A stretch of 64,000 bases of DNA, from NCBI GenBank assembly GCA_028867785.1, contig JAGWFS010000004.1:1-64000 (forward strand), read 5' to 3'. Origin of the DNA: Nitrososphaerota archaeon. Its GTDB lineage: Archaea > Thermoproteota > Nitrososphaeria > Nitrososphaerales > Nitrosopumilaceae. Both the position numbers and the translations under genes were made by a program. Below are positions 19,963 through 49,001 of the stretch, one piece after another (the stretch's first letter is position 1; the number at the start of each line of letters is the position of its first letter). The notes under the pieces were generated by a model, which saw only the letters and a program-made list of their open reading frames with translations, was not told where the DNA came from and searched no databases.

Positions 19963-21828
19963 ATGTTGGTCTTTTGTACAAACTGTGGTAACAAATTAGC
20001 TGAGGAACATAGGTTCTGCAGCAAGTGTGGGACTGCTTTGGATCCATCGACTGAGCATGAAGATGTTCATAATATTCCAGATCACAACCCATCACCTAAT
20101 CTCGATGATTCAGCCATTGATGATGATTTTGAAATCCCGAACACATCATCCTCAGTAATCACGGGAAGTGACGAAACCCAAATTCAAGAAAAGTCCTATG
20201 AATATAGATCAAATGAACCGTATAGCTACGCAATAGACAGAAAAACACTTTTTTCTGATGGTCTTTTAGTACTCTCTTCTCAGGATCTTATACTGTATTC
20301 TTCTGACGAAAGAGACGAACTAAAGAGAATACCACTTTCTTCTATTGAAAGTGCTTCATTTAACATGTTATGGAAGAATCTTGAAGTAAAAAGAAGAATC
20401 AATGAGGAAGATAACTTTGTAAGATACGTAGAATCAAGAAAAAATAAACTTGCACAATTAAACGACGAATTTGCAAATCAGAATTTCAAACTAAGAAACA
20501 CGAGGGTGAGAAATGAAAGAGCCATAATTAAAAACAAGATGGCTGGTATTTATAACGAGATCCAAACGGTATCTGAAGAAGTACGTCAATTAGATACTGA
20601 CCCCACAAAGATCCACTTTCGCAAACGAAAAGAAGCTGATATCAAAAAGGAGACATTCAAACTACCAAAAGATTTTTCGTCGGATCACGACATAAAAAGT
20701 GAATATAAAATCTGGGCATATGCAATAAACAGACGAATTAGCAGAATTCCAAAGATGAAGATTGAGACGTGTCCATATAGTGCAATTGTGAAAATAAATG
20801 GGCAAGTAATTGGAACCACGCCACTTGTTACAGAACTGCCACTTTTTGATGAAGCGGTATTGAACGGAAAATATGACATCGAAGTTCTAAAAGAAGACTA
20901 CGAGAAGGAACATTTTCAAATATCAACAAAGCTTGGTAAAGATTCTTTTCTAAAACAAATTGAGCTTAAAAAATTGGATAAACACGACGTAACATTTGAT
21001 GAATATGTTCAGTCGTTACGAGGTAAATTGCCGGATAGATCGATAGACCTTACATCATACTCAACGGAACGAGAAATCGATGGAATTGGAGAGATTTTGG
21101 TACTGACCAGGGAAACGTTGCTGGTCCTGAGCAAAGACAGGCAAGAATATCTCTTTGAGATACCTTATGGTTCTGTAAATGAAGCAAAATATGATGATAG
21201 ATTCCTACGAGGAAACAAGGCGATAAGAATAAACTATAATGAGAGAGGATTTGGTGAACAATTCTTTGAGTTTTGGATTGATGATAAAAATGGTGAGGTT
21301 TCTAAATCTGAGATAAAGCACAGGTCTGAAAGTCTGGTTGAACTGTTAAACAGGAAAAGAAAAGAATGCGATCTAACAGATTATCCAAAACTTGTTCGTG
21401 CCCAGAAATACTTTGTAATAACACCTAATGATTTACAAAACAACTTTCAGAGATTTGAACCATTTGAGTTTGAAAGGCTGGTAGGCAAACTGTTTGAAAA
21501 GAAAGGTTACAAAGTAGAGGTAACCAAAAAAACTGGAGATCTTGGAGTAGATCTTCTTGCAAGAGCGGCCAACGATACTATTGCCATTCAAGTAAAACAC
21601 TGGCAAGCCTCTGTAGGAGGTCCTGATGTACATAAGACACTAGGGTCTATGTTCACCTATGGAGCAAATCGTGCCATGGTTGTCACAACATCAGACTTTA
21701 CAAAACAAGCATATGAGATTCAAAAACGGGGGGCTCCAGTTGACCTGTGGAATGGTGCGAAACTGCGTGAAGAATTTAGAAGGCACCTCCTAGACGCTAT
21801 CAATTATAGCCGAGAAAAAGGATCTTAG
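19963..21828 (+). CDS. Mrr-type restriction endonuclease with zinc ribbon and PEGA domain
   Basis: A protein of 621 residues. It has an N-terminal zinc ribbon (C5-x2-C8, C19-x2-C22, zinc-ribbon_2 type); an acidic linker; a PH-like stretch containing a coiled coil; a PEGA-like domain (CPYSAIVKINGQVIGTTPL, about 267-320); a second PH-like stretch (about 365-440); and a C-terminal Mrr_cat nuclease (about 500-605). The nuclease keeps the PD-(D/E)xK core: GDLGVDLLA, then IAIQVKHW. Mrr-type enzymes cleave modified foreign DNA. The zinc ribbon and PEGA additions are unusual and may serve in sensing or tethering. The gene stands alone inside the defence-rich stretch. Confidence 0.8.
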   Translation: MLVFCTNCGNKLAEEHRFCSKCGTALDPSTEHEDVHNIPDHNPSPNLDDSAIDDDFEIPNTSSSVITGSDETQIQEKSYEYRSNEPYSYAIDRKTLFSDGLLVLSSQDLILYSSDERDELKRIPLSSIESASFNMLWKNLEVKRRINEEDNFVRYVESRKNKLAQLNDEFANQNFKLRNTRVRNERAIIKNKMAGIYNEIQTVSEEVRQLDTDPTKIHFRKRKEADIKKETFKLPKDFSSDHDIKSEYKIWAYAINRRISRIPKMKIETCPYSAIVKINGQVIGTTPLVTELPLFDEAVLNGKYDIEVLKEDYEKEHFQISTKLGKDSFLKQIELKKLDKHDVTFDEYVQSLRGKLPDRSIDLTSYSTEREIDGIGEILVLTRETLLVLSKDRQEYLFEIPYGSVNEAKYDDRFLRGNKAIRINYNERGFGEQFFEFWIDDKNGEVSKSEIKHRSESLVELLNRKRKECDLTDYPKLVRAQKYFVITPNDLQNNFQRFEPFEFERLVGKLFEKKGYKVEVTKKTGDLGVDLLARAANDTIAIQVKHWQASVGGPDVHKTLGSMFTYGANRAMVVTTSDFTKQAYEIQKRGAPVDLWNGAKLREEFRRHLLDAINYSREKGS

Positions 21829-26060: not shown

Positions 26061-26355
26061 AATCAGATGTCAGTGAGAAATTTCTGAATTGATAAAATCA
26101 CTGAAAAAATCAAGCCGATATCAAGGAAGAAGTAAAGAAAAAAATGGACGAGAGTGAGGAGATCCTAAGAAAAATCCGAGATCTCTGAAGACCAGATTAA
26201 GCATGTCTATAGACTAAATGATGTATAGAATTGGGAAGAAAAAAGCAGTACTTTTGCTAAATTGAGCTGGACGAAGAGGAAATTACGCATTTGAAAAATC
26301 CAGTAATCTCAAGTAGGGCTAATCCTTTTTACACTTTACATGATCCTAGATACTT
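26061..26355. other. intergenic region with coding remnants
   Basis: About 295 bases of A-rich sequence. The stretch 26100-26190 reads in short fragments as charged helix (for example MDESEEILRKIRDL, then stop) but has no complete gene. It is probably the debris of a lost gene. A TATA-like stretch (TTTTTACACTTTACA, about 26326-26340) serves the SIR2 gene. Confidence 0.4.
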
Positions 26356-28863
26356 GTGATAATTCCAAAACCTTTACTTGAAGATATAGTGAATAAAAAA
26401 TGTCTGCCATTTATTGGTGCTGGTCTTTCATTAAATGCTGAATTACCATCAGGTAAGCATATGGTAGATTGGGACGGAATTATTACAGATCTTAGAAACG
26501 AGCTCAGAACTGAGACATCTTGCCCCTTAGAAGTTGCGCAAGAATATGAGGATACGTTTGGAAGACCGAAATTGATAGAAACCCTTGAAAAAATTCTACA
26601 CATATACATTGTAAAACCAGGAGATGTTCACAAGGAATTAGTAAGATTAGGATTGTTTGATGTGATTTATACTACTAATTTTGATAAGCTGCTTGAAGAT
26701 GCATGTAAACAAGAAAACATACAATTTAGAGCTATTTCAGCTCCTAAACAAATTTCTCTCCTAGGAGGGTCTTCAATTGTAAACATAATCAAAATGCATG
26801 GGGAACTTCCAGATTTGGAATATTTAGTTTTTACAAAGAAGGATTACTCTGATTATGAAAGCAAATACGATGTGATTGTAGCCCATCTAAAAGGCTTGTT
26901 AACTGCAAAAACAGTGCTTTTCTTAGGGTATAGCTTACAAGATCCTAATTTTCAACAAATTAAACAAATGGTAGAAAAAATGATGGGACCTTCGATGCGG
27001 AAAAGCTATATCGTGCTGTTGAATGCAGATCAAACGAAAGTTTCTGAATATGAAAAAATGAACTTATATGTAATTAATCTTCAATCTAGCACAAAATCAA
27101 AAAGCGAACTTTTGCTGGAATTCATAAAAGAGATTTCTAACTATAAAACTCCAAAATTATTGCCGACTGATATACAAGTTTCTGCTCATAAATCAGTGGT
27201 CATATATGGTGAGACTTTAGAAATACGCACTAGAGTTTCTAAGATCCCAGATAAAGCCATTGCACTTACAATCATGAATGCACAGAACGAGATTATCTAC
27301 AAAGGAAACATGGATGAGGAGATAAATGAGGAGATTAGCAGCAAGAAAATTGTTGTACGTGGATCAAAATGGCACGTTGGTGAAGATTGTACAATAGTTG
27401 CTGAATACGATGGAAAAACGGCTTGGGATAAAATTCACATATCTGAAAAACTACCAATTGTTCTTCAAACAGACAAAAGTGTGTATATCTATGGCAGTGA
27501 CATGATTGTGACAATTGTAAATCCCAATCACATAGTTGGAATACCAATTAATCTTGAGATAATAGGCCTAGACAACAAACTAGTTTACAAAAACTCGATT
27601 CCAGTGCAACAGTTTGGAAATGGAATTTATCAAGAAATTATTCTTGTTGGAGGAAAAGATTGGTCGCGTGTGCCAGGTTCACAATTTAGGGCAGTAGCTG
27701 AATTTGATGGGAAAACTGCGGAAGTCGTAATTTATACCTCAAACTTTGGAGCCACTATTCAGCTTGACCAGAAAGTGTACACCTGGACTGACAGAGTCTA
27801 CATCACAGTAGTTGCTCCTGATTTCAATCGTGATCCAAACATGCCTGACGTAATTGGAGACGATGAAATAGGGAAGATAACCGTCTCTACTAAAGGCAAT
27901 GTATTATCATCATACAAATTAGTGGAAACAGGACCGGATACTGGGATTTTTACTGGATATGTGGTTCTTACTGGGAATCCTGCACTTAAAGGATCTAACG
28001 GGGTTGACGGACAAGGAAATGTTCCGTCAGGGCAGATAGGCGGCGAAGGACCAATTGATGGAATGTTATCTGCACAAGATAGTGATAAGATCTCTGTTTC
28101 TTTCAAAATTACGGAAGATCGTATTGTGACAGCTTCTGCAATTATTCGATGGAATATTGGGCAGATTTCATGGCTTCAATCAAGCTACCCAGCTAATGGT
28201 CAAGGAGTATTGCAGATTGTAGACCCAGACATGAATCTCAATCCAAAGGCAGTCGATAAGTTCGACACCAGGGTATGGTCTGACTCAGATTCTAATGGTA
28301 TCAAAGTCACCATGATAGAAACTGGACCAGATACCGGTATTTTTCAAAGCACAGTGAATTTCGTAAATGATGAAAAATCTCCCATCAACTATCTTAAAGT
28401 TGCAGAAGGTGATTGCATAACAGCTGAATATGTGGATAGAACCCTTCCGCTCCCATATACCGCTAATGATCAACTAAGGCTCACAGCTACAGCATTCATA
28501 GGAACAATAGTTCCACCGCTTGAAAGAATCAAGATACTTAATTCAAGATTACTTGACTCTGCAGGTAATACTTTAACCTCTGCAAAAACCAATCAAGAAA
28601 TTCATATGGCATCGGATCTAGTAAATGATCAAAATAAAGATCAACCATTTGCGTATTTAGTACAGGTTCAAGATGATAAAGGCATAACAGTTTCTTTAAC
28701 ACATATCAGTGGAACAGTATCGTCTAAACAATCCAGTCCTGTAACCCAAAGGTGGATTCCAACATTGCCAGGTAATTACACAATTCAAATTTTCGTGTGG
28801 AGAAGCATTGAAAATCCAAATGCCTTATGTCCTCCAACACAGATACGAATTCGTGTGGTGTAA
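26356..28863 (+). CDS. SIR2-type protein fused to S-layer-like beta modules
   Basis: A protein of 835 residues from GTG 26356. Residues 1-260 are a SIR2_2-type Rossmann domain: PFIGAGLS (18-25), YTTNFDKLLE (105-114), KMHG with His148, and GYSLQDPNF (191-199), all the NAD-handling motifs of defence SIR2 NADases. From about 270 to the end are tandem beta-sandwiches: two MG2-like units with YIYG, then two units with the ETGPDTGIF motif typical of thaumarchaeal S-layer and surface proteins. The last part (TATAFIGTIVPPLERI ... WIPTLPGNYTIQIFVWRSIENPN) is closely related to the secreted protein at 47406-48977. There is no signal peptide. A cytosolic NADase carrying surface-protein modules as a sensor is the inferred reading. 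Confidence 0.85.
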   Translation: MIIPKPLLEDIVNKKCLPFIGAGLSLNAELPSGKHMVDWDGIITDLRNELRTETSCPLEVAQEYEDTFGRPKLIETLEKILHIYIVKPGDVHKELVRLGLFDVIYTTNFDKLLEDACKQENIQFRAISAPKQISLLGGSSIVNIIKMHGELPDLEYLVFTKKDYSDYESKYDVIVAHLKGLLTAKTVLFLGYSLQDPNFQQIKQMVEKMMGPSMRKSYIVLLNADQTKVSEYEKMNLYVINLQSSTKSKSELLLEFIKEISNYKTPKLLPTDIQVSAHKSVVIYGETLEIRTRVSKIPDKAIALTIMNAQNEIIYKGNMDEEINEEISSKKIVVRGSKWHVGEDCTIVAEYDGKTAWDKIHISEKLPIVLQTDKSVYIYGSDMIVTIVNPNHIVGIPINLEIIGLDNKLVYKNSIPVQQFGNGIYQEIILVGGKDWSRVPGSQFRAVAEFDGKTAEVVIYTSNFGATIQLDQKVYTWTDRVYITVVAPDFNRDPNMPDVIGDDEIGKITVSTKGNVLSSYKLVETGPDTGIFTGYVVLTGNPALKGSNGVDGQGNVPSGQIGGEGPIDGMLSAQDSDKISVSFKITEDRIVTASAIIRWNIGQISWLQSSYPANGQGVLQIVDPDMNLNPKAVDKFDTRVWSDSDSNGIKVTMIETGPDTGIFQSTVNFVNDEKSPINYLKVAEGDCITAEYVDRTLPLPYTANDQLRLTATAFIGTIVPPLERIKILNSRLLDSAGNTLTSAKTNQEIHMASDLVNDQNKDQPFAYLVQVQDDKGITVSLTHISGTVSSKQSSPVTQRWIPTLPGNYTIQIFVWRSIENPNALCPPTQIRIRVV

Positions 28864-28962
28864 GTATATGGTATTCAAAGTACACTACGTTGGTTTCTAT
28901 CCAATGTGGATCCGCCAATATCAAAGATCACTCTAGAGAATGGTTTCAGAGTTGCAGGGGGT

Positions 28963-29150
28963 TGATTCTAGGAGTATGAGACGTACTTGGATCTAGAAAA
29001 CTTGGAATCAAAGTTTAGGAAGATTGCACCAAGTATTTTGAAATTGAAGCCAAAAGATGTGAAGAAGGCTGGAATATCAAAGCAAACCCTGTGGAATGCT
29101 AAGAAGAAAATCGAGTTGAATCGAATTGATAGAATCGCAGTCAAAATCAG
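28963..29150 (+). pseudogene. C-terminal remnant of an unidentified gene
   Basis: A short open frame without a good start codon (first TTG at 28987) encodes a soluble helical piece (ESKFRKIAPSILKLK, then ISKQTLWNAKKKIELN) that looks like the end of a larger protein with a helix-turn-helix-like tail. It then becomes hydrophobic and AT-rich where it overlaps the convergent gene, which argues that coding ended earlier. No family is recognised. Confidence 0.3.
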
Positions 29151-29178: not shown

Positions 29179-30630
29179 TTAATTCTTAGTTTGTTTATTA
29201 AACCATTGAAGAAATTCATCCAAATCAAAATACCATTTGAGGTCATCTTTTTTAATATTAGTATTAAATCTGTGATGTTGCTGATACATTCTCATCGGAT
29301 TAGATTCATAGAATTTTTCAATAGCCTTGCTTAAATCACTTTTTTCCTTTTCAGTGAGCATGTATTGTTTATATGATTCAAGAGGTATAATACCATCACA
29401 GCGTCTCTGAATCATTGTCATTTTATTTACTATGACATCATTTAGAAATTGTTGAAGTATTTTGATCATAATATCATAGGATTGGATGACTTCTTCTGAA
29501 TAAGGTAGTGGTAGCACGTTTGTAAAAGGATCAGAACCTACGTAAATCATAGCATATGAATCAAATTTCTTATTTGCAAATGGATCTGCTGACTTGGCTC
29601 CTAACCTTATAGGAAGACCTGCATGCTTATACCGTCGGAAAATCTGCTTATGTGTTTCCCTGAATGTTTTTATGTATTTCAAGTAGTTCTTAAAATTTTC
29701 AATATTTGAATCCATGATTTTTTGTACAATTTGTTTTTCTGATGACGACATTGAAATTGTGTCAAGATTGACATAGCTCAGAATTTTTCCAAAATCATTC
29801 GGTTTTAGATTTTCCATAATTGTAAAAAATTTTGTAATTCTTTCTCCTACATCAGGGTCTTTCCTATCCAATAATTCATAATAATTTCCACTCGATTCTA
29901 ATATGGCGCTGTTGAGAATAATTAGATCTTCTATATACATCATAATTTTTGAAATAATATCTAATTGTATTGACGCTCTAGTTCTAGCAAGATCATCTTC
30001 AGTTAGTCTTATTTTTTTATCATGAATTTCAATTTCTCCTGAATTTGCTCTCTTAAGTAATTGAAACATTAAACCTAGTAGCCAACCTCGTAGAGGAAGA
30101 CTGTTATTCAAATAATTTTCCAAAAGCAGATGGACTTTCCTTTCACCGTCATTTGAAAACCCATTAAATGAATTTGTAAAATCATTAATGTTGATTAATA
30201 GCGGCGAATTTGATTTATATCTATTATCAGATTTTTTATTTTTGCCAATATAAGAAACTGATTTTAATTTTACAAATACTTCTGAAAAACCACACGCGTC
30301 AAACAAAGTTATCTCGACAATGCTATTTGTACTTATGTTGATTTCATTTTGATCTAAATTAAGAGAATAGGTGCTACCTATTCCTTCTGCTTTTATAAAT
30401 GTCTCAGCAGAAAAAACCAGATTTTTTATATCAAAAGGCAACTGATTTTGAATTTTTAAGATCACTGGGTAAGCTTCGCCCTTTATTCGAGATATTTTTT
30501 CATCTTGTTTTATTTTTTCTACGGCTTCAGTGCTACCTTGCAGAATTAATTCTGGAGCATCTGCAATATTTGAAGAAGTGATTTTCCTACAATCAAAATC
30601 TAATTTAAGAAAATTGGAATTATTTGACAT
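29179..30630 (-). CDS. uncharacterised cytosolic protein next to a HEPN-like gene
   Basis: A protein of 483 residues without signal peptide or membrane segment. Residues 1-130 look beta-rich (VILKIQNQLPFDIKNLVFSAE, a C2/Ig-like sandwich). The rest is helical, with charged segments and no recognisable catalytic motif. It is AT-rich like its neighbour at 30739-31650, which is on the same strand 108 bases upstream. The two probably came together and may work together. I assign no function. Confidence 0.65.
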   Translation of the reverse strand: MSNNSNFLKLDFDCRKITSSNIADAPELILQGSTEAVEKIKQDEKISRIKGEAYPVILKIQNQLPFDIKNLVFSAETFIKAEGIGSTYSLNLDQNEINISTNSIVEITLFDACGFSEVFVKLKSVSYIGKNKKSDNRYKSNSPLLININDFTNSFNGFSNDGERKVHLLLENYLNNSLPLRGWLLGLMFQLLKRANSGEIEIHDKKIRLTEDDLARTRASIQLDIISKIMMYIEDLIILNSAILESSGNYYELLDRKDPDVGERITKFFTIMENLKPNDFGKILSYVNLDTISMSSSEKQIVQKIMDSNIENFKNYLKYIKTFRETHKQIFRRYKHAGLPIRLGAKSADPFANKKFDSYAMIYVGSDPFTNVLPLPYSEEVIQSYDIMIKILQQFLNDVIVNKMTMIQRRCDGIIPLESYKQYMLTEKEKSDLSKAIEKFYESNPMRMYQQHHRFNTNIKKDDLKWYFDLDEFLQWFNKQTKN

Positions 30631-30738
30631 GTATATCGACTCTTAAAGGATATTCCAAAACCATGTCAATTCAACTTATTTTTTGACTAAAAACTTTACT
30701 GTACTATGAAATATCAGGATTATTTTTTTATAAAACTA

Positions 30739-31650
30739 TTAGTTTTGAACTACAAATTTGTGTCTAAGCACACCCAATAATTGAAATGTAAATAACAAAT
30801 TGACCGCAGCTTTACAAAAAGTATCTATCTCTGCTACAAAATTGAAAAAGTCTTCACATGTGAACGTTTTGTCATAATCAAATTTCCATTGTGGATCATT
30901 ATCTGGACTTTTGAAATGAATCGTGCATGGATTTTGATTTATTCGGAAATGATGATGATCTATTAAATGACGTATTGCAGTTGCTTCCGTATAATATTTT
31001 CCAGCAATATCCTTTCTAGGTACAATTCCGCGAATACCCATAATCTTCACAGGATCAAATTTTGCAGTATAAGAAATGCTGTTATTTCTAGAATACTCGT
31101 TTATTTTATCTCTGTATTTAGTAAGTTCCTCAAGAAATGCTTTGACAACTGTTTCAACTCTAGATGAATGATTCATCAATAGTGCATTAATTCCAGTTAA
31201 ATCCGAATAATTACTCTGTTTCAATTTGGGAAGTATCTCATTAGTATACATGGTCACATCTCTCATTTTGTCTACAATGTCTGGCTTGAAATTCAAAAGC
31301 TGATGCTCAAACGCATTTTTATGCTGATCTAAAAACACTGCTATTTCATTTTCTGCCTCAAATAGGTCTTGCAAGTTCTTTTCAATATTGGGATGTATTT
31401 TTGTAAATGTTTGTAGCAACCAATCAATTACAGTATTTGCAGTTTTGTTATCGAGAAAAGGACCTGTCGAGGATTGAACGCTCGAATTTAATTCATTCAA
31501 TTTTGATGCAAGTTGACCATAGCCTTGATTCGGAATTACTTTTTCTACAGAACCCAAAAACTCGTTAATTATGCCTATGATATTTTTGACTGCATCTTTT
31601 GCTTCTTGTAAAGTGAGATCTTTTGCAAGTTTTCCTCCCATGCCACTCAT
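30739..31650 (-). CDS. helical protein with a HEPN-like RHLIDH motif
   Basis: A cytosolic protein of 303 residues, mostly helical with coiled-coil character up to about 190. Residues 222-235 (EATAIRHLIDHHHF) contain Arg227-x4-His232, the HEPN RNase-type signature, followed by further His residues. Two conserved-looking helices follow (CEDFFNFVAEIDTFCK...). The HEPN call is tentative because it rests on one motif. TATA-like ATATATTAC lies about 31 bases upstream of ATG 31650. It is paired with the unknown 483-residue gene downstream, and lies in the defence-rich stretch. Confidence 0.6.
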   Translation of the reverse strand: MSGMGGKLAKDLTLQEAKDAVKNIIGIINEFLGSVEKVIPNQGYGQLASKLNELNSSVQSSTGPFLDNKTANTVIDWLLQTFTKIHPNIEKNLQDLFEAENEIAVFLDQHKNAFEHQLLNFKPDIVDKMRDVTMYTNEILPKLKQSNYSDLTGINALLMNHSSRVETVVKAFLEELTKYRDKINEYSRNNSISYTAKFDPVKIMGIRGIVPRKDIAGKYYTEATAIRHLIDHHHFRINQNPCTIHFKSPDNDPQWKFDYDKTFTCEDFFNFVAEIDTFCKAAVNLLFTFQLLGVLRHKFVVQN

Positions 31651-47405: not shown

Positions 47406-48977
47406 TCAATGCAGTTTAACCTCAGCGTAGCTCATCCCCGATATCTCGACACCACTAAGCTGGTACAGTCCTGCTGGACAAGGCAGAGCTACGGAATTTA
47501 TGTACGTAAAGTCCGAAGCATTTACCTCATCGGCAGAATATCCCACTGCCAGCGGATAGCTGTTGCAGATGCCTTTTAGTACAGATGAATCATAAAAACC
47601 TGTAGCGTTTGACAGTGCTCTTATGATGTATGTTACCGTGAACTTTGAGCCAAGAGGCTGATTTGCAAGATCGACGGTTTCAGGTACGACTTTGATCTTA
47701 AATGAATGCGTATAGTCTTTTGCAGGAGTAACACTGGTTCCATAATTATTTTTTTCTTGGCGTACATTTCCTATATTTAGAGTAGAATTGAATCTAACCA
47801 AGCTTGAACAGTGCATTCCGTTACAGTCCTTGAAATTGGAAACGACTGTAAAAGTGAGTCTGGCGCAGGCAGTAGAGTTTGATTTCATCAGAAGGACTGG
47901 TGTGACTCTAAGGCTAGGTTGGTCATCTGGAGCCGGAGAGAACCGCCTGCAGCTATTTTCTAAACTCATCGCGGATGGGCCGATGGATGCAGTAAGATGC
48001 CCCCATCCCCTATCAGCCAAAATTTGTGCAGTTTCAGGTGTTACACATGCTGTTGCATTATTGTCTGACTTGGCCACAAGTTCATATCCTGCTTGGCATC
48101 TGCGGTTTTCAAAACCTGCTGTAGAATTAGGAACAGAAACATTTGGCAGTACAGTAAGCTCAGACAAGAGTGGTGGAGAAAGAGAGTTTGGGTTGTTGAT
48201 GCTCTGCCAGACAAAAATCTGTACGGTATAATCTCCTGCACTTGGTGGAGTCCATGAAACGCTTGGGCTAAATGTTTTAGAGGGAAGAAGCAACCCCGAT
48301 ACGGATGAAAGAGATACCACATTCTGGTGCTCGTCTGATATTTGAACAATATATGCAAATGTTTGGTTTCTGATAGTAATGTTGTCAAGCTTCGATCCAA
48401 TCTGAATCTGTCTATTGACGAGGATGGTTCTCTGCGGATTTCCTTCGTTGTCAGTTATATTGATTCCCGAGGCTGGAACTCTTTCAAGTGGGGGACAAAG
48501 CATACCAATGAAGGCGGTTGTTGTGACACCTTGGTTTTGTGTGCCAATTGACCAAGGATTTGAGCCTGCATATTTTGCAGTTATTGTGTCTCCGTCTCTC
48601 ACATGAATGAGATTTTGTGTCGACCACCCTTCAGTTATTGTGACAGTTCCTTTGAATATTCCAGAATTGACTTCTGTCTCGTAGGCGGTAATCTGGATTC
48701 CTTTCCTGTCTGAATCAGACCATACAAATACCGTCACCCTGTCTATTGAGGCGCTGTATTTGTTTGCGGCCGGGTCTGTGACAGTAATTGTCGCTATTTT
48801 TTGCTCTTCTCCCATGGTCTTGCCAGTCTCGTAAGAATAGCAGCTCATTTCCCTTGTTGCATAGCTTGCATGATCAAACCATATTGTGGGCGTGGTTTCA
48901 TTTTGGGCATATGCTTGATTTGACTGTAAAATGATTGCTAACAAAATTGTAATTGGTAAAATCCAAAAGAATTTCAT
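47406..48977 (-). CDS. secreted protein related to the SIR2 fusion's beta modules (array gene 11)
   Basis: An exported protein of 523 residues. I take ATG 48977; ATG 49001 lies inside the promoter region. Signal peptide FWILPITILLAIILQS. Residues about 30-285 (VDRVTVFVWSDSDRKGIQIT ... ETEVNSGIFKGTV ... TTAFIGMLCPPLERVPA ... WTPPSAGDYTVQIFVWQSINNPN) are homologous to the last part of the SIR2 fusion at 26356. The RGW module follows (about 300-345, CQAGYELVAKSDNNATACV). The C-terminal domain (YIIRALSNATGFYDSS) is related to the ends of 33257 and 36128. It heads a two-gene operon. Confidence 0.84.
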   Translation of the reverse strand: MKFFWILPITILLAIILQSNQAYAQNETTPTIWFDHASYATREMSCYSYETGKTMGEEQKIATITVTDPAANKYSASIDRVTVFVWSDSDRKGIQITAYETEVNSGIFKGTVTITEGWSTQNLIHVRDGDTITAKYAGSNPWSIGTQNQGVTTTAFIGMLCPPLERVPASGINITDNEGNPQRTILVNRQIQIGSKLDNITIRNQTFAYIVQISDEHQNVVSLSSVSGLLLPSKTFSPSVSWTPPSAGDYTVQIFVWQSINNPNSLSPPLLSELTVLPNVSVPNSTAGFENRRCQAGYELVAKSDNNATACVTPETAQILADRGWGHLTASIGPSAMSLENSCRRFSPAPDDQPSLRVTPVLLMKSNSTACARLTFTVVSNFKDCNGMHCSSLVRFNSTLNIGNVRQEKNNYGTSVTPAKDYTHSFKIKVVPETVDLANQPLGSKFTVTYIIRALSNATGFYDSSVLKGICNSYPLAVGYSADEVNASDFTYINSVALPCPAGLYQLSGVEISGMSYAEVKLH

Positions 48978-49001
48978 GTATACTAGGTGCGGGACAAGCA
49001 T

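Follow-up and report, generated by a model that had tools for sequence, protein, structure and literature searches.

The question raised by this locus is why an ammonia-oxidizing archaeon (AOA) should join a SIR2 domain to pieces of its own S-layer protein within a single gene. AOA are key players of the nitrogen cycle. The gene was studied in a DNA stretch of 64,000 nucleotides, referred to here as the window, starting from an earlier note made from the DNA sequence.

Organization of the fusion gene

The open reading frame described in the earlier note is present with the expected boundaries (Table 1). An in-frame TAG codon at 26347–26349 lies 9 bases upstream of the start codon, and no further in-frame coding sequence was found upstream of the start. 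The frame is intact over its whole length and lies inside a 212-kb contig.

Table 1. Positions of the fusion gene, its parts, and other genes discussed in the text. Positions without a prefix refer to the window.
Feature	Position	Strand	Remarks
SIR2–Ig–Ig–S-layer D8–D10 fusion gene	26356–28863	+	835 aa, GTG start
SIR2 domain (predicted NADase type), residues 1–264	26356–27147	+	N108 codon 26677–26679, H148 codon 26797–26799
Two Ig-like modules, residues 268–461	27157–27738	+	relatives in signal-less AOA proteins L057–L062; all-beta in AF2 model
S-layer C-terminal domains D8–D10, residues 462–834, own-genus type	27739–28857	+	PDB 8c8k, diagnostic columns, Foldseek
Casposon polB 3′-end remnant	28958–29112	+	starts 95 bp after the fusion gene
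Two low-G+C (0.31) genes beside the fusion	29179–31650	-	weak matches below cut-off only
Exported protein with S-layer C-terminal modules	47406–49001	-	comparison protein of the earlier note
Ntn fusions	L057:478–3273, L061:1–2793		genomes G286 (Nitrosarchaeum MAG) and G087 (another genus)
Viral S-layer genes	L220:3933–8843, L221:4233–9125, L222:4347–9137, L223:4470–9128		

The SIR2 domain

The N-terminal part of the fusion protein belongs to SIR2_2 (E 2.7e-24), which is the only Pfam family above cut-off in the protein. It also matches the PADLOC profiles of ThsA (E 3.6e-32) and DSR2 (E 3e-20), the latter match being confined to residues 19–246. The closest solved SIR2 by sequence is KomC (E 2.6e-17), and the residues N108 and H148 of the fusion align with N107 and H146 of KomC, respectively. 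The NAD motifs that had been read from the sequence, GAGLS (21–25), TTNFD (106–110), H148 and GYSLQDPN, were all found. Both N108 and H148 are kept in the two orthologues L039 and L040, which share 41 and 39% identity with the fusion. No further relatives of the SIR2 part were detected in the scans of the genome contigs and viral contigs. The domain is predicted to be an NADase of the ThsA/KomC/DSR2 type.

Identity and origin of the S-layer tail

The residues following the SIR2 domain had been regarded as surface-type beta-sandwiches, and this holds for both parts of the region. The two Ig-like modules are all-beta in the AF2 model, and the remainder corresponds to the S-layer domains D8–D10. 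Residues 432–833 of the fusion match residues 1337–1732 of Nmar_1547, the S-layer protein of Nitrosopumilus maritimus (PDB 8c8k), with an E value of 8e-129. The AF2 model of the fusion protein, in which the SIR2 part is poor, gave 8c8m and 8c8k as top matches in Foldseek, and the tail is a beta-sandwich in both analyses. According to the domain limits in PMC11153153, D8–D10 are the last three Ig domains and form the membrane-proximal base of the lattice. The membrane-proximal end is proposed there to be the lattice anchor, and the glycans of the S-layer are found mostly on D1, D2 and D4 (PMC11153153).

The tail had earlier been compared with an exported protein encoded elsewhere in the window. 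The homology is real (window 48159–48788, 40% identity over residues 619–831, E 3e-41), however this protein is not the closest match, as the S-layer protein itself is closer. The reading frame of the exported protein is present but longer than described: position 48977, the upper limit given there, corresponds to an ATG inside the frame, from which a good signal peptide can be read.

The tail shares 64.4% identity with the S-layer proteins of its own genus and 52.8% with those of other genera. Of 25 diagnostic columns, 17 show the own-genus state in the tail and not one shows that of the other type. The same columns in two fusions with a proteasome-like (Ntn) domain, described below, give ratios of 2:6 and 2:9 (own-genus:other). 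In the maximum likelihood tree the tail is nested inside the own-genus S-layer clade with a support of 100/100, on a long branch. An arrangement of the three fusions as one clade was not rejected by the AU test (p 0.15), and capture of the tail independently of the Ntn fusions is thus unproven by phylogeny. For such an independent capture, the diagnostic columns are better evidence than the tree.

The S-layer gene of the same genome (G000) is apparently split across two contig ends (L005 and L008 on contigs C44 and C11), and the split falls inside the region homologous to the tail. An exported paralogue of 400–440 aa that corresponds to the S-layer C-terminal domains (L002:1495–2754) occurs in most own-genus genomes.

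Predicted cellular location

In agreement with the earlier note, no signal peptide was found before the SIR2 domain, nor was a transmembrane segment. The best 17-residue hydropathy within the first 60 aa is 0.94, versus 2.4 in the exported relatives. An export signal missed upstream of the start was also considered; none was found, an in-frame stop lies just upstream, and the start is shared by the two orthologues. The Lys+Arg content was compared in 64 S-layer-type C-terminal sequences. Four of these belong to fusions and contain 13.0, 10.2, 9.9 and 7.5%, while the other 60 do not exceed 7.0%. The top values of the fusions are expected if these copies are cytoplasmic and the rest are exported. 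Judging from these sequence properties, the fusion protein should stay inside the cell.

Relatives with exchanged domains

A search for SIR2 fusions with inspection of their neighbors, proposed in the earlier note, yielded SIR2 fusions of any kind in three of the 250 genomes of the family, the genome of the window included. The exact SIR2–S-layer architecture was detected in a single genome. The frames of the orthologues L039 and L040 have 706–720 aa and end with a cupredoxin; besides SIR2, they contain one Ig module, a helical stretch without family assignment, and a module that belongs to a common exported family.

S-layer domains D8–D10 also occur in the signal-less proteins L057 and L061, together with the Ntn domain, Ig modules and a cupredoxin. 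The relation of the Ntn domain to the proteasome was detected by hhalign with an E value of 0.0012 at low probability. Foldseek gave proteasome subunits or Anbu among the top matches listed for a low-confidence model (pLDDT 40), and Thr2 and Asp18 are conserved. The junction of the second Ig module (Ig-B) to the S-layer part is likewise present in a Nitrosarchaeum MAG (L057/L146) that was deposited independently. Two further signal-less proteins, L058 and L059, combine HEPN_Swt1 (E 8e-9 and 1.5e-10, respectively) with Ig modules and are recognized by PADLOC as PDC-M34B. L062 contains two transmembrane helices, a coil, and Ig and S-layer-like modules, and the module protein L060 is encoded immediately after an Mrr nuclease and a cyclase-like gene. 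Ig arrays as such are ubiquitous in these archaea. Viral scans with the Ig modules, the Ntn domain and the cupredoxin were empty, and no report of such fusions was found in the literature searched. L123 was rejected as a further fusion, as it apparently starts with an export signal (judged by eye).

Casposon genes and gene neighborhood

All three SIR2 fusions lie next to casposon genes. Over 156 bp, the DNA of the remnant downstream of the window fusion matches the casposon polB of L217 at its 3′ end with 80% identity (E 3e-34); L218, L219 and L154 are matched as well. By its sequence, the element in the window is a decayed casposon. In L154, Cas1 (E 2.1e-54) and polB lie beside the SIR2 orthologue together with an HTH-like and an HNH-like gene; in L153 a Cas1-like fragment is found 0.3 kb away. 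Assignment of window positions 28987–29100 to the tail of Cas1 was rejected. The segment is the casposon polB 3′ end, and the C-terminus of polB shares the ISKxTLW motif with Cas1. With its low G+C content, the neighborhood of the fusion is foreign-looking. Sir2-like proteins have been described in three casposons (Krupovic et al. 2014, PMC4046053) and were first discussed there as possible deacetylases. They probably belong to the same gene group as the SIR2 of the fusion.

Defense-type genes are found near module proteins in other genomes as well. DrmD/BrxH-like SNF2 helicases adjoin a module protein in L151 and L152, and a TIR-like effector is encoded near one in L150. No TIR gene (ThsB) was present among the neighboring proteins scanned with Pfam, which are a subset of the window ORFs.

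Two other genes were noticed in these regions. A zinc ribbon–PEGA–Mrr_cat protein, a candidate defense nuclease, is encoded at window positions 19963–21828, approximately 4.5 kb upstream of the fusion. In a genome of the same genus, a TIR-WYL protein (L218:10566–11303) directly follows the casposon polB.

S-layer genes in virus contigs

Four AOA virus contigs from IMG/VR encode full-length S-layer proteins of 1552–1636 aa with signal peptides. Three of these contigs are syntenic, and tail/baseplate-type proteins were recognized from them (L225). The Pfam terminase search of the virus contigs gave no match, but PHROGs identified a terminase large subunit on the L222 contig (L226:15298–16740, E 1e-16). 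The last 380 residues of the viral S-layer proteins are 78–88% identical to host S-layers, and the whole viral proteins are 56–65% identical to each other. With the C-terminal part near that of the host and the remainder diverged, the viral proteins stay host-like in the stretch that the fusions have copied.

Proposed function

We propose, at somewhat short of even confidence, that the protein is a casposon-borne cytosolic abortive-infection NADase whose sensor bait is an envelope module. In the resting cell the SIR2 NADase would be held inactive. The sensor would be the C-terminal tail, which copies the membrane-proximal S-layer part and is placed behind two Ig-like spacers. It would bind a protein that, during infection, touches or resembles this part of the envelope, such as S-layer protein made by the virus or a viral protein that acts on the S-layer. 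Binding of the ligand would cluster the SIR2 domains, and the clustered domains would then deplete NAD+.

The NADase activity, the defense function, the bait role and the ligand are all what we infer. The role in immunity is deduced from similar tails with exchanged effector-type domains, the linkage to a mobile element and the neighboring defense genes, and the bait role from the lineage-matched tail. That the same modules are joined to other effector domains suggests that the coat piece serves as bait for sensing a virus. The idea of a cytosolic defense-type NADase carrying the surface modules of its own cell, put forward in the earlier note, fits the SIR2 motifs, the lack of an export signal, the module swapping and the casposon and defense neighbors. 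A simple decoy for receptor-binding proteins, suggested there, is less likely, since D8–D10 form the membrane-proximal lattice base and not the exposed face. The sensed ligand may be S-layer precursors or a virus-encoded S-layer protein. The rarity of the SIR2 fusions and the single genome with the S-layer form speak against the proposal, and the Ig modules could merely be spacers. The fusions lacking D8–D10 (L058, L059 and the SIR2–cupredoxin proteins) would need another bait.

The tail may instead guard secretion or the envelope by binding the cell's own S-layer precursors, which would accumulate in the cytosol once secretion is blocked by a virus or by stress; the homotypic contact would then activate the NADase. 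The copied part is membrane-proximal, is the proposed lattice anchor (PMC11153153) and is of the own-genus type, and the S-layer protein is reported to be the main surface protein. Such a guard is nevertheless unlikely: the cupredoxin-tailed SIR2 orthologues would need a different precursor, and an abundant ligand that is always made would require very tight coupling to secretion.

SIR2 effectors generally need multimerization, and a tail built from the most abundant, ubiquitous Ig modules might be no more than an oligomerization or spacer scaffold, with sensing taking place elsewhere. We consider this distinctly unlikely, as the 64% identity and the 17 of 25 diagnostic residues exceed what a plain scaffold needs, however a recent origin could also explain them. 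A recent accidental fusion, a decaying gene or an assembly chimera is very unlikely. Occurrence in a single genome, the long branch and the position beside a decayed casposon would fit such an event, but the frame is intact within its large contig, the SIR2 motif residues are kept and the separate Nitrosarchaeum MAG has the Ig-B to S-layer junction as well. Repeat-driven misassembly is excluded, as the S-layer part is only approximately 63% identical to the S-layer fragments of its own genome.

A surface or exported NADase toxin directed against neighboring cells, with the tail as its anchor in the S-layer, is highly improbable: the tail does belong to an envelope protein, but the missing signal peptide, the upstream in-frame stop, the conserved N-terminus of the orthologues and the cytosol-like Lys/Arg content speak against export. 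To the same slight degree we credit a sirtuin-like deacylase with envelope or chromatin proteins as substrates, which would agree with the role first discussed for the casposon Sir2-like proteins (PMC4046053), but the best profiles are those of the NADases ThsA, DSR2 and KomC and not of deacetylases.

Comparison with known systems

Among the PADLOC profiles, that of ThsA, the SIR2 NADase of Thoeris, matches the SIR2 part best, and the motif residues are kept. The C-terminal SLOG domain of ThsA was not detected by Pfam in the fusion, which carries the S-layer tail instead. KomC, the SIR2 NADase of the Kongming system, has 264 aa and no such tail. In DSR2, a phage structural protein switches on the SIR2 NADase. 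Like the fusion, DSR2 is a single-chain SIR2 effector with a large C-terminal sensor region, a likeness of working and not of the region itself: the helical C-terminal region of DSR2 is not present in the fusion, where S-layer Ig domains take its place. Known single-chain SIR2 defense proteins sense phage proteins or signals through dedicated domains. Here the putative sensor region is recognizably copied from the host coat protein, and modules of a similar kind are also joined to unrelated effector-type domains. In this candidate role, an envelope module as sensor would be a novel sensor principle.

In plant NLR receptors with integrated decoys, a host protein touched by pathogens is present as a copy. 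The fusion resembles them in carrying a host-protein copy within a putative receptor, there is no homology, and the bait role in the fusion is a predicted one. If the proposal is true, the fusion would represent a prokaryotic equivalent of the integrated decoys and would give a first idea of virus resistance in AOA, and the carriage of S-layer genes by viruses would be an attack answered by host immunity. Compared with Nmar_1547, the fusion lacks the signal peptide and D1–D7, carries SIR2 and is more basic. The casposon Sir2-like proteins resemble it in the position of a Sir2-like gene beside casposon genes; envelope-type tails and NADase activity are not mentioned for them in the parts of PMC4046053 drawn on here.

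Possible class of receptors and further gene arrangements

It is possible, though doubtful, that AOA possess a class of cytosolic receptors in which swappable envelope baits (S-layer D8–D10, Ig arrays and blue-copper domains) are combined with interchangeable effectors (SIR2, proteasome-like protease, HEPN and 2TM). Such receptors would be spread by casposons and refreshed from the S-layer of the current host, and S-layer-carrying viruses would be one target.

Two gene arrangements were additionally observed. In L151:8255–11231, an Mrr-type nuclease, a class III cyclase-like protein and an Ig/S-layer/cupredoxin protein are encoded in a three-gene run with overlaps of a few bases. In L149:5761–12037, a second SIR2-like gene and a family B polymerase of viral type lie close to a HEPN_Swt1–Ig fusion.
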